Shown here piece by piece: positions 1-33,756 of a DNA stretch of 42,320 nucleotides. The stretch comes from Desulfobacterales bacterium (GTDB taxonomy: Bacteria > Desulfobacterota > Desulfobacteria > Desulfobacterales > SURF-7), in NCBI GenBank assembly GCA_018693105.1, contig JABHLN010000022.1:1-42320 (forward strand). Reading direction: 5' to 3'. Made by a program: the position numbers and the translations under genes. Below the pieces are notes generated by a model. The model ran no database searches. It saw nothing but the letters and a program-made list of their open reading frames with translations, and was not told where the DNA came from. The number at the start of each line of letters is the position of its first letter. Position 1 is the first letter of the stretch.

Positions 1-140
1 AAAAGTCCCCATCTACTGCGTTATAGCGGTTGATCATAAGTTCGACATACTGCATGTATGCCTTCACTCCTGATCAACCACTATGCCTTGTATATGAAGA
101 TATTTACTTAGCCATCGGTTATACTTTTTACGAGTTCATC
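1..140 (-). repeat. Palindromic MITE-like element, copy A (truncated by window edge)
   Basis: Read on the minus strand it starts GATGAACTCGTAAAAAGT and runs off the window at its other end (position 1 is AAAAGT). The inner stem is perfect over nine bases (GGTTGATCA against TGATCAACC) around a central CATAC/GTATG. It shares long blocks with copies at 5.9 kb and 33.6 kb. The visible outer flank is AAGTTTGATG; the other flank lies outside the window, so a duplication cannot be tested. About 12 bp seem to be missing compared with the 152 bp copies. It sits just downstream of the KamA-like gene's stop codon, so it could also end or stabilise that transcript. Confidence 0.85.
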
Positions 141-176
141 AAGTTTGATGCATACTTAAATTATATACTCTTAATC

Positions 177-4263: not shown

Positions 4264-4432
4264 AATAATTGATGAACTCGTAAAAAGTCAACTCGGGATG
4301 GCAAAGTAAAAAGTTCAAAATCAAGGCGCCGCAAATCCTGAGGAATGAGGCATACTTATCGTACGCCGCAGTGACGAGGGATGCAGCGCAACGCAGATAT
4401 TGGACTTTTTACGAAGCCATCAATAATTGATG
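4264..4432. repeat. Palindromic MITE-like element, copy B, with flanking direct repeats
   Basis: The element body is 4271-4421 (151 bp) with ends GATGAACTCGTAAAAAGTC and, on the complementary strand, GATGGCTTCGTAAAAAGTC. The 11-base repeat AATAATTGATG flanks it at 4264-4274 and 4422-4432. The inner arms (GCGCCGCA.. / ..TGCAGCGC) are complementary around GGCATAC...GTACGCC. This copy shares its termini with copies A, C and D, but its inner arms and part of the subterminal blocks differ. It shares two subterminal blocks with the 18.5 kb palindrome. Confidence 0.9.
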
Positions 4433-5788: not shown

Positions 5789-5863
5789 CTCGAAAAAGTT
5801 AAATTATACTGGTTCATATTTGTTATGGTCCAGTATAATTTAACTAAAAGTTTAGCATTGATT

Positions 5864-6030
5864 AAATATGATGAGCTCGTAAAAAGTATAACCGATGGCT
5901 AAGTAAAAATCTTCATATACGAGGCATAGCGGTTGGATAGATGTGAAGGCATACATGTAGTATGTCGAGTGTCTGGCTAAACGCTATAACGCAGTAGATG
6001 GAGACTTTTTACGACGTCATCAAATATGAT
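5864..6030. repeat. Palindromic MITE-like element, copy C, with flanking direct repeats
   Basis: The element body is 5870-6021 (152 bp). Ends are GATGAGCTCGTAAAAAGT and, on the other strand, GATGACGTCGTAAAAAGTC. The 9-base repeat AAATATGAT is present on both sides (5864-5872 and 6022-6030). The inner stem TAGCGGTTGGATAGA faces TCTGGCTAAACGCTA with only two mismatches plus wobbles. The loop side is GGCATACATGTAGTATGTC. It sits between the convergent GAF and RidA-like genes. Confidence 0.9.
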
Positions 6031-17699: not shown

Positions 17700-18422
17700 A
17701 TGGCTCATTTGTCGGTAAATATTGATCATGTTGCAACCCTAAGACAAGCCAGAGAAAATGTACAATACCCTGAACCGGTATCTGCTGCAATGATTGCAGA
17801 GATTGCCGGTGCAGAGGGCATCGTTGTCCACCTCCGTGAAGACAGGCGTCATATACAGGATCGTGATGTAAAATTACTGAAACAGGTTATTCAGGGAAAA
17901 CTTATTCTTGAAATGGCCGGTACAAGTGAAATGATTGGTGTAGCACTTGATATTCAGCCTGATGTGGTAACTCTTGTACCCGAAAAAAGGAATGAACTTA
18001 CTACAGAAGGCGGGTTGGATCTAATATTAAACAAGGCTTCAGTGTCAAAAGCAGTAAGCACTTTACACGATAGTGGTATTAGCGTATGTATTTTTATTGA
18101 CCCAGAACCGGAACAGATCAAGATAGCTCATCATATAAATGCTGATATGGTTGAAATCCATACAGGCACATTTTGTGATGCTTCTACTTCCTCAAAAAAA
18201 GAACGGGCATTTTCAAGAATTGTTGATGCAGTAAAATTTGCCCACAAATTGAAACTTGTTGTCAATGCCGGCCATGGAATCTGCTACAATACAATCAAAG
18301 CATTCAAAGGTCTTAAAGAAATTGAGGAATTCAGCATTGGCCACAGCATTATTTCAAGAGCCGTACTTGTAGGTATGGATAAGGCGGTTAGAGAAATGCA
18401 CAAACTTGTTAAAGAGTTATAA
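17700..18422 (+). CDS. pdxJ: Pyridoxine 5'-phosphate synthase PdxJ
   Basis: Condenses 1-deoxyxylulose 5-phosphate with 3-amino-2-oxopropyl phosphate to make pyridoxine 5'-phosphate (DXP-dependent vitamin B6 pathway). At 240 residues it is full length for this TIM-barrel homo-octamer. LSVNIDHVATLRQAR at the N-terminus, GIVVHLREDRRHIQDRDV, EMAGTSEMIGVALDI, EIHTGTFC and NAGHGICYNT cover the phosphate- and substrate-binding loops. SD GGAGG lies in the last codons of ybeY, two bases after its stop is the ATG, so the genes are translationally linked. PLP enzymes in the window (KamA-like, YggS) would use its product. Confidence 0.95.
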   Translation: MAHLSVNIDHVATLRQARENVQYPEPVSAAMIAEIAGAEGIVVHLREDRRHIQDRDVKLLKQVIQGKLILEMAGTSEMIGVALDIQPDVVTLVPEKRNELTTEGGLDLILNKASVSKAVSTLHDSGISVCIFIDPEPEQIKIAHHINADMVEIHTGTFCDASTSSKKERAFSRIVDAVKFAHKLKLVVNAGHGICYNTIKAFKGLKEIEEFSIGHSIISRAVLVGMDKAVREMHKLVKEL

Positions 18423-18467
18423 AACAAATCAATTTTTTTGGTGAAATAAAAAAATATAACTGATAAA

Positions 18468-18612
18468 TAGTGTCCATCTGGAAATGAGGATGTTTATTCA
18501 AGATCAAGGCATGCGAAAAAAATAACCACCGGCATATGTATGATATTCCGAGGATTATTTTTTGAGCATAACGGAGATATTGGGCAAAAAGACCATTTCC
18601 GGATGGGCACTA
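18468..18612. repeat. Second palindromic element type (copy E), between pdxJ and nnr
   Basis: 145 bp with terminal inverted repeats TAGTGTCCATCTGGAAATG and, on the other strand, TAGTGCCCATCCGGAAATG (17 of 19 identical, both differences transitions). The inner arms (AAAAAATAACC... / ...GGATTATTTTTT) pair around a central CGGCATATGTATGATATTCCG. Its termini are unrelated to copies A-D, but two subterminal blocks match copy B: TTCAAGATCAAGGC on the left and AACGGAGATATTGG on the right. I could not see a clear flanking direct repeat. It occupies the pdxJ-nnr gap. Confidence 0.8.
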
Positions 18613-18707
18613 ACTAAGCACCCCGGGATTGGTGGGCATGTACAAGTAGTAGATTCGCTATAGTGGGACTTACCAAACCATCATTTTCATTCATCCAGGA
18701 GAAAATC

Positions 18708-20267
18708 ATGTATATTGTCACTGCAGATGAAATGCAGGAAATGGACAGGCAGACAATTGAAGACTTCGGCATTCCTGGTAGAGTACTTATGGAAAATGCC
18801 GGCCGTGCAGCAGCACAAGTTTTTTTAGACAAATTTTCTCCTTTTGATAAGAATGTAGGAATTATTGCAGGAAGAGGCAATAACGGCGGCGATGGTTTTG
18901 TGATTGCCCGTTACCTTTATGAAAATAATATAAATGTCACAGTATATCTTTTATCCAGAAAAGAACTTGTAAGCGGTGATGCAGAAGCAAACCTAAATCT
19001 TCTCTCAGGTCTGGATATAGAAGTACTTGAAATACCTGACAATGAATCATTTATAGAAAACAGGATGTCAATAATACATCAGCATATCCTTATAGACTCA
19101 ATATTTGGAACAGGCCTTAATTCTGATGTAAAAGGCTTTTATCGTGAATTCATTGAATTTATTAATAGTCTTAAAAGACGTGTCTTTGCAGTTGATATTC
19201 CTTCAGGCCTTAATTCAGACACAGGACAGCCTTGCGGCACATGTATCAAGGCAGAGGCTACTGTAACTTTCGGACATCCCAAAATCGGTCACTTTCTTCT
19301 TCCGGGAGCTGAATATTCCGGAGAACTTGAAATAATTGATATTGGTATTCCAGGGCATATAACTAAAAATGCTAAACCCTCACATCATCTTTTAACCCCT
19401 GAAGTTATTAACTCATATTTTAAACCAAGACCTCTTGAATCCCATAAGGGAACTACCGGTCACCTTTTTGTAATTGCAGGCTCTCCTGGAAAAACAGGAG
19501 CGGCCTCACTCACAGCCATGTCGGCAATGCATGTCGGTGCAGGTCTTGTTACACTTGGAATACCAAAAAGTCTGAATTCTGTTCTGGAAACACAAGTCCT
19601 GGAAGTAATGACCTGCCCTCTTCCTGAAACCAAAACCGGAGAACTATCAAAACAGGCTTTTGAAGATATAAATAAAAAGTTAATAGACAAGAAATGTCTT
19701 GCTATAGGGCCAGGAATAGGAACATCAGAAGAGACAAAACAACTAATACTTAAAGTTATTAACAATATAAATATCCCCATTATAATTGACGCAGATGGTC
19801 TCAACTGTCTTGCCGGAAACACCAGAATTCTGAAAAAAATGAATACACCTGCGATATTAACGCCCCATCCAGGTGAAATGGCTCGTATGATAGATTGCAG
19901 CACAAAAGCAGTTCAGCAGGACAGAATAAAACATGCAAGATCTTTTGCCGTTGAGTTTAATTCAATTATTGTTCTGAAAGGAGCAAGGACATTAATTGCT
20001 CATCCTGACGGCAGGGTCTTTATAAATACAACAGGTAATCCAGGTATGGCATCAGGAGGAATGGGTGATGTTCTAACAGGCATCATTGCCGGTCTGCTAA
20101 CACAGGGTTTCACCCCTGAAAACGCATGTCATGCAGGTGTTTACCTTCATGGTAAAGCAGCTGATACTCTTGTACTTTCAAAAGGTCCTTTCGGGTTTAT
20201 AGCTTCAGAAGTTATGAAAGCTGCACCTGAACAGATAAGTAACTTTTTTACAAATTCTTTTATTTAA
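18708..20267 (+). CDS. nnr: Bifunctional NAD(P)HX epimerase / ADP-dependent dehydratase
   Basis: Repairs hydrated NAD(P)H. The N-terminal NnrE/YjeF_N epimerase domain (about 1-215) has GRVLMENAGRAAA, GRGNNGGDGFVIARYL and DSIFGTGL. The C-terminal ribokinase-fold NnrD/YjeF_C dehydratase domain (about 225-515) has KGTTGHLFVIAGSPGKTGA, GPGIGTSEE, LTPHPGEMARM, and the nucleotide/catalytic segment GNPGMASGGMGDVLTG. The tracked ORF starts at 18663; the ATG at 18708 is preferred because AGGAG sits seven bases upstream and MYIVTADEMQEMD is the family N-terminus (519 aa). It is followed by tsaE after ten bases. Confidence 0.95.
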   Translation: MYIVTADEMQEMDRQTIEDFGIPGRVLMENAGRAAAQVFLDKFSPFDKNVGIIAGRGNNGGDGFVIARYLYENNINVTVYLLSRKELVSGDAEANLNLLSGLDIEVLEIPDNESFIENRMSIIHQHILIDSIFGTGLNSDVKGFYREFIEFINSLKRRVFAVDIPSGLNSDTGQPCGTCIKAEATVTFGHPKIGHFLLPGAEYSGELEIIDIGIPGHITKNAKPSHHLLTPEVINSYFKPRPLESHKGTTGHLFVIAGSPGKTGAASLTAMSAMHVGAGLVTLGIPKSLNSVLETQVLEVMTCPLPETKTGELSKQAFEDINKKLIDKKCLAIGPGIGTSEETKQLILKVINNINIPIIIDADGLNCLAGNTRILKKMNTPAILTPHPGEMARMIDCSTKAVQQDRIKHARSFAVEFNSIIVLKGARTLIAHPDGRVFINTTGNPGMASGGMGDVLTGIIAGLLTQGFTPENACHAGVYLHGKAADTLVLSKGPFGFIASEVMKAAPEQISNFFTNSFI

Positions 20268-33587: not shown

Positions 33588-33756
33588 TCAATTATGATAA
33601 TCTCGTAAAAAATACAACTGATGGCTAAGTATAAATCTTCATATACAAGGCATAGTTATTGATCTGGAGTGAAGGCATACATGTAATATGTCGAATTTCT
33701 GATCAATCGCTATAACGCAGTAGATGGAGACTTTTTAAGACGCCATCAATTATGAT
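33588..33756. repeat. Palindromic MITE-like element, copy D, with flanking direct repeats
   Basis: The element body is 33596-33747 (152 bp). The 11-base repeat TCAATTATGAT occurs at 33588-33598 and 33746-33756. Ends are GATAATCTCGTAAAAAAT and, on the other strand, GATGGCGTCTTAAAAAGTC, more eroded than in copies B and C. The inner stem has ATTGATC facing GATCAAT, with a central GGCATACATGTAATATGTC. Blocks such as TGATGGCTAAG and AACGCAGTAGATGGAG match copies A and C. Confidence 0.9.

Follow-up and report, generated by a model that had tools for sequence, protein, structure and literature searches.

A MITE superfamily of Desulfobacterota that probably combines one folding core with the ends of different insertion sequences

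A MITE is commonly seen as a shortened copy of a single insertion sequence (IS) whose fate it shares. The bacterial families described so far (RUP, NEMIS/Correia, Chunjie and others) have in common a length of 50-300 bp, no coding capacity, IS-like inverted repeats, target duplications, hairpins, AT-rich intergenic sites and many copies, and each family has one end type and is thought to come from one parent IS (PMC10969869, PMC2229807). TIMEs, which derive from Tn3, are non-autonomous and mosaic, and hybrids with altered core regions are on record (PMC4133298). REP/REPIN units are abundant intergenic palindromes of 20-40 bp that carry a GTAG or CGTC tag and are often linked to a RAYT (PMC3733652, PMC3116915). 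The elements that we describe here resemble each of these systems in part. Unlike the described MITE families, they combine one core with at least eight end types from different parents, and the parent ISs that we identified lack the core. The 5-bp duplications of TIMEs recur in one of our end types (G), but TIMEs keep 38-bp Tn3-type repeats constant while the cargo varies (PMC4133298), whereas here the core is constant and the ends vary. Compared with REP/REPIN units, our elements are longer, have target duplications and have no RAYT nearby. Relative to the IS5 family, they are small elements without a transposase that have kept only the IS termini around a foreign core. In the open-licence papers that we searched, we found no description of a core that stays constant while its ends change.

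The window, which is the whole stretch of 42,320 nucleotides that was analysed from a Desulfobacterales genome, contains five palindromes. One of them, at 18468-18612, had been described in an earlier note as a second palindrome type with ends unlike those of the other four (copies A to D). Its letters are as stated there, with terminal repeats TAGTGTCCATCTGGAAATG and CATTTCCGGATGGGCACTA. The repeats are real, but the target-duplication statistics given below place the true ends at GTG...CAC, because the outer TA on each side is part of a 6-bp target duplication and not of the element, which measures 141 bp between the duplications (Table 1). We refer to these ends as X ends and to those of copies A to D as A/B ends. 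The X terminal inverted repeats are 17-19 bp long and consistent across 75 X elements. The element folds end to end (RNA -55.9 kcal/mol, z -7.9; DNA z -5.6), and the centre that the note had read as a GGCATA/TAT-type loop is indeed a GGCATAT-loop-ATATTCC stem. A pattern search of the X element for an intrinsic terminator or promoter found none, and Rfam covariance models gave no match at E <= 1 within positions 18000-19000 of the window.

Table 1. Palindromic elements of the window and their parts; bit scores and E values are those of covariance model R1.
Feature	Position	Strand	Remark
X-type MITE proper, GTG...CAC, 141 bp	18470..18610	+	exact 6-bp repeats abut GTG/CAC in 33 of 75 X elements
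Left target duplication TAAATA (consensus TANNTA)	18464..18469
Right target duplication TAACTA	18611..18616		5/6 alike with the left copy
Left terminal inverted repeat, X type	18470..18486	+
Right terminal inverted repeat, X type	18594..18610	-
Conserved folded core	18492..18589	+	101.5 bits, E 1.7e-25
Left block TTCAAGATCAAGGC	18497..18510	+	AAGG opposite AACG across internal loop
Right block AACGGAGATATTGG	18570..18583	+
Central stem-loop GGCATAT-GTATG-ATATTCC	18531..18549	+
Copy A, cut by contig end; core 3-103 on minus strand	1..142	-	41.3 bits, E 1e-8
Copy B, A/B ends, b core 4309-4409, 7-bp flanking repeats AATAATT	4271..4421	+	30.2 bits, E 1.2e-5
Copy C, A/B ends, a core 5910-6004	5870..6021	+	29.0 bits, E 2.7e-5
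Copy D, A/B ends, a core 33633-33733	33596..33747	+	39.6 bits, E 3e-8

X elements occupy about 30 places in this genome, compared with at least 40 B elements and at least 40 A/C/D elements, all of these copy numbers being lower bounds. The elements are 141-155 bp long and no ORF of at least 90 aa spans the X element of the window; 0 of the 85 scored copies lie inside such an ORF, though 78% of these loci is ORF. Records that carry X ends bear mostly the names Desulfobacteraceae and Desulfobacterales. Searches of viral contigs returned 0 and 1 hits, and X, B and G elements were all without a match in plasmids. At two loci of this genome (L102 and L097; G000:C113 and C96), X elements have apparently inserted at the 3' end of a gene, where the TAG of the element would provide the stop codon (TAC TAG TGT and AAC TAG TGT). 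Four loci (L188, L199, L206 and L220) of CAJVZD01, an uncultured Cellvibrionales record that carries a gammaproteobacterial label (or is a mixed bin), have X ends on either side of another palindromic core, TCATTGCGAGCGAAGCGCGGCAATC; model R1 (see below) did not pick up this core at the two loci that were scanned. Positions 5797-5845 of the window, which lie between the end of a gene and copy C, hold a 22-bp inverted repeat with a 5-nt loop (AGTTAAATTATACTGGTTCATA / TATGGTCCAGTATAATTTAACT), which is perhaps a terminator.

The earlier note had reported that two subterminal blocks of the X element match copy B. Each block is 13/14 identical between the two and lies at the equivalent place. A coincidental match, which the note had named as the outcome that would speak against it, is excluded genome-wide: the right-block sequence AACGNAGATATTGG is found without mismatch 77 times in the 3.24-Mb genome, whereas a reversed-pattern control is found once and base counts predict 0.1 matches. 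Each of the 75 distinct occurrences that we examined sits in a palindromic element with X or A/B ends, the matches falling into X ends with a core form that we call x, A/B ends with a b core, and one mixed copy. Both subterminal blocks form the borders of a conserved hairpin core of about 98 nt. The modular family that the note had pictured is supported, and the modularity reaches beyond what the note described. The ends are exchangeable; the blocks are no modules of their own, and form the internal-loop edges of one folded core.

We aligned 23 elements of the X, G, S, V and W types (end types are given below) and found that 20 of the 33 core pairs had changed on both sides, a count that was equalled in 0 of 500 shuffles, in agreement with the note's description of variable but self-complementary arms. 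Pairing and covariation together were above all 500 shuffles and all slid versions of the alignment, although part of the excess over the slid versions is expected, as this alignment was also the source of the predicted structure. The core has two conserved internal loops, AAGG/AACG and ACC..AGG/CGAGGAT, and many of the invariant columns belong to internal loops or border on them (A-G of AAGG, A-C of AACG, ACC, and CGAGGAT).

We then built a covariance model, R1, from the core without any sequence of copies A to D. In the 42-kb window R1 found exactly the five palindromes, all at full length, and matched A to D in one orientation only. Its sole further match was the antisense strand of X, which at 35.1 bits scored above B and C; the scores of those two copies are therefore due in part to palindromic shape. 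A sequence-only model recovered X, the antisense of X and, weakly, B (13.4 bits), and missed A, C and D. Because R1 finds all five and the sequence-only model does not, we conclude that the five palindromes have a common architecture, in which the arms have diverged but remained complementary. The loop motifs and the single orientation of the matches to this model support the view that A to D are true members of the core family. Model R1 also matches 101 of 395 genomes of the phylum, and within the order, 108 of 194 genomes contain a g form of the core.

When the genome itself and 59 relatives were searched with the X element, query positions ~31-132 were also found alone, between quite different ends. 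Across the order and the phylum, the one core is combined with eight or more terminal types: X, G (GAGACCTTTGMAAAATG), S (GAGCCASTTTCAAAACG), V (GAGGCTGTCCGAGAATAGC, adjoining CTAG), W (GTRCCTGAWRAAAAAAT), Z (GGGTACCTCTAAAAATT), Y (TTAGAAGCCATCTCAAAAAT) and others, some of which are single cases. Most end types place GTTCAAG 25-26 nt from the terminal G. We counted the direct repeats adjoining the ends and compared the counts with shuffled flanks. X elements were flanked by repeats of exactly 6 bp with the consensus TANNTA in 33 of 75 cases (shuffled 3.8), with no 7-bp case. A/B elements had 6-bp repeats in 33 of 102 copies (shuffled 1.4) and a few of 7 bp; a duplication of 9-12 bp, guessed from the four window copies, was dropped on these 102 copies. 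G elements had 5-bp repeats in 19 of 34 (shuffled 0.6), or in 30 of 34 if one mismatch is allowed, S elements had 4-bp repeats in 3 of 4, and the sole intact V copy is flanked by CTAG, as read by eye. Direct repeats of this kind are target duplications, and the elements are thus transposons without a gene, that is, MITEs. Since the length of the duplication differs by end type, we conclude that one core was moved by enzymes of different cutting geometry.

The earlier note had suggested comparing each end type with a resident transposase. We found no PF01609 (DDE_Tnp_1) transposase in the host genome, a fragmented MAG that can lack ISs, but the G, Z and Y ends do match IS5-family elements of relatives. 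G ends are the exact termini (GAGACCTTTGCA) of the IS5-family (NF033581) elements L458, L462 and L468, the last of which comes from a genome that belongs to one family with that of the window. The duplications of L458 (GATAT), L462 (AGCCG) and the related L452 (GAGAGCTTTGAA; AAGTT) are 5 bp, the same length as in G elements. Z ends match the termini (AGGG..CTCTAAAAATT) of L145, L446 and L447, and one genome (G003) contains both the Z element L121 and the IS5 element L145, whose termini are 15/16 alike. The end of the Y element L133, TAGAAGCCATCTCAAAAAT, is one terminus of the IS5 element L382 (NF033580) and also matches L394. The three end types thus have IS5-family parents, and they match different IS5 branches. 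The core was present in none of the twelve G-, Z- or Y-type IS loci checked. Neither this genome nor a set of 80 named X-end loci yielded an autonomous element with X or A/B ends; the stretches inspected at those loci were small elements or single ends, with no transposase ORF in X-bounded or X-adjacent stretches, and none of about 90 transposase loci examined had an X-end pair around it. Membership in the TIMEs was rejected, because the X repeats are 17-19 bp and not of the 38-bp Tn3 type, and the G, Z and Y ends are of IS5 type. In another genome (G090; C31, C74, C123, C126, C132 and C142), a fragment of about 120 bp that encodes residues ~225-265 of an IS5-type transposase occurs in six copies; these are perhaps MITEs derived from the 3' end of an IS.

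Comparison of cores with ends gave discordant relationships. A G element (G_L122) and an X element (X_L171) were 89% identical in the core and 53% in the ends; that X element and another (X_L195) were 85% identical in the ends and 69% in the core. On a tree of the cores, the distribution of X ends requires 7 changes, a number no better than that for shuffled labels, and forcing them into one clade costs 57.7 log-likelihood units; the core tree is short with many weak forks, so the magnitude of the p-value is not to be read literally. Within this genome alone, X ends carry three cores, x, g (C166, L424) and b (C117, L095), which together with the eight or more end types on one core bears out the exchangeable ends that the note had proposed. 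The X-ended element with a b core is L095 (C117:44664-44819). Its ends agree with X at 31/33 and 23/24 positions and with B at 18/33 and 11/24, while its core agrees with B at 57/60 and with X at 29/60. The joins fall at the two blocks seen by the earlier note, and the TAACTA duplications are perfect. On the left, its first 43 nt are identical to those of an X copy (L011) that has CATATAG, a rare variant; the core of L095 shows 2 differences from b copies elsewhere over 69 positions. At about 15 nt, the shared blocks are below the usual word lengths of assembly, which, given both junctions and the perfect duplication, makes misassembly unlikely, although only reads could exclude it. Judged from sequence, L095 is a clean chimera of X ends and a B core, and core and ends have separate histories.

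Taken together, we consider it very probable that these elements form a MITE superfamily in Desulfobacterota in which a single folding core has acquired the ends of different ISs. The outer module of about 25 bp would be an inverted repeat recognised in trans by a particular DDE transposase with its own duplication length, and the inner part would be the self-complementary core of about 98 nt with its two conserved internal loops. X elements would be moved by some DDE transposase giving 6-bp duplications at TANNTA. From the one clean chimera and the tree incongruence, we infer that elements may exchange their ends at the adjoining shared blocks, through template switching or conversion. Alternatively, hairpin snap-back in replication could copy one captured IS end to the other side; such copying makes an inverted end pair in one step, so matched ends fit this route too. 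The core may be kept because folding helps the element, either in transposition or through host tolerance, or it may have a host function. We tentatively entertain a stronger version, in which the core is itself a selfish unit, a phylum-wide folding module that replaces its transposon ends and outlives the loss of any one transposase. The internal loops would then be needed for a general step of transposition, such as single-strand folding or bringing the ends together, or for making matched ends via snap-back copying of a single IS end.

Similar cores could also reflect inheritance without any exchange, if the ends of one ancestral MITE were altered stepwise as the transposase changed. This would account for the near-constant spacing to GTTCAAG and for the vague G-G-C-...-AAA pattern that the ends share, but it is a quite unlikely explanation, as X ends occur on x, g and b cores within one genome, the core tree rejects X ends as one clade, duplication length varies with end type, the IS5 matches of the G, Z and Y ends fall on different branches, and the chimera L095 exists. 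An unlikely origin for the core is that of a host structured RNA or regulatory element, such as a 3'-end stabiliser or an attenuator, which transposon ends just spread. The strong covariation and the invariant internal-loop positions would suit such a role, as would copies that are always intergenic and often lie within 50 bp of a gene end; the covariation, however, is equally expected if folding of single-stranded DNA matters, the searches for an Rfam family and for a terminator or promoter pattern were negative, neighbouring genes have no clear orientation bias, and copy numbers are very uneven among relatives.

Movement by a single-strand system (REP/RAYT, IS200/IS605 or attC-like folding as in integrons) is brought to mind by the whole element being one imperfect hairpin with conserved bulges. 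We regard this as highly improbable: the target duplications are clear and their length is end-specific, and the terminal repeats of three end types are common to DDE elements. The genome does contain one full-length Y1 transposase, but this is a lone IS200-like TnpA beside a ferredoxin-like gene (G000:C150:19277-19636, L168) with no such element nearby, and a Y1/RAYT origin was rejected on that ground. A likeness to integron attC sites was also set aside, since the ends, inspected by eye, have no RYYYAAC/GTTRRRY core.

In the superfamily that we favour, a conserved folded core that is absent from the identified parent ISs pairs with the ends of different transposases, which suggests that the core has switched repeatedly from one means of transport to another. 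Such pairing would account for elements that outlive their transposases and for the spread across the phylum, and it offers a natural system in which to ask which part of a MITE interior is under selection. The family also accounts for a repeat class that fragments MAGs of sulfate reducers. In one MAG (G604; C1, C6, C7, C34, C94 and C113) and in others, many contigs end within core-bearing elements, so these repeats are one cause of MAG fragmentation. Lastly, in some X, S and A/B elements, part of one arm is replaced by a tiny perfect hairpin, (A)TCCCGC-nnnn-GCGGGA(T) or ATCCGCC-TGA-GGCGGAT (L097, L098, L100, L017, L019, L023, L185, L239, L109 at 584, L300, L326 and L106). These tiny hairpins look as if another palindrome had been exchanged or inserted within the arms.
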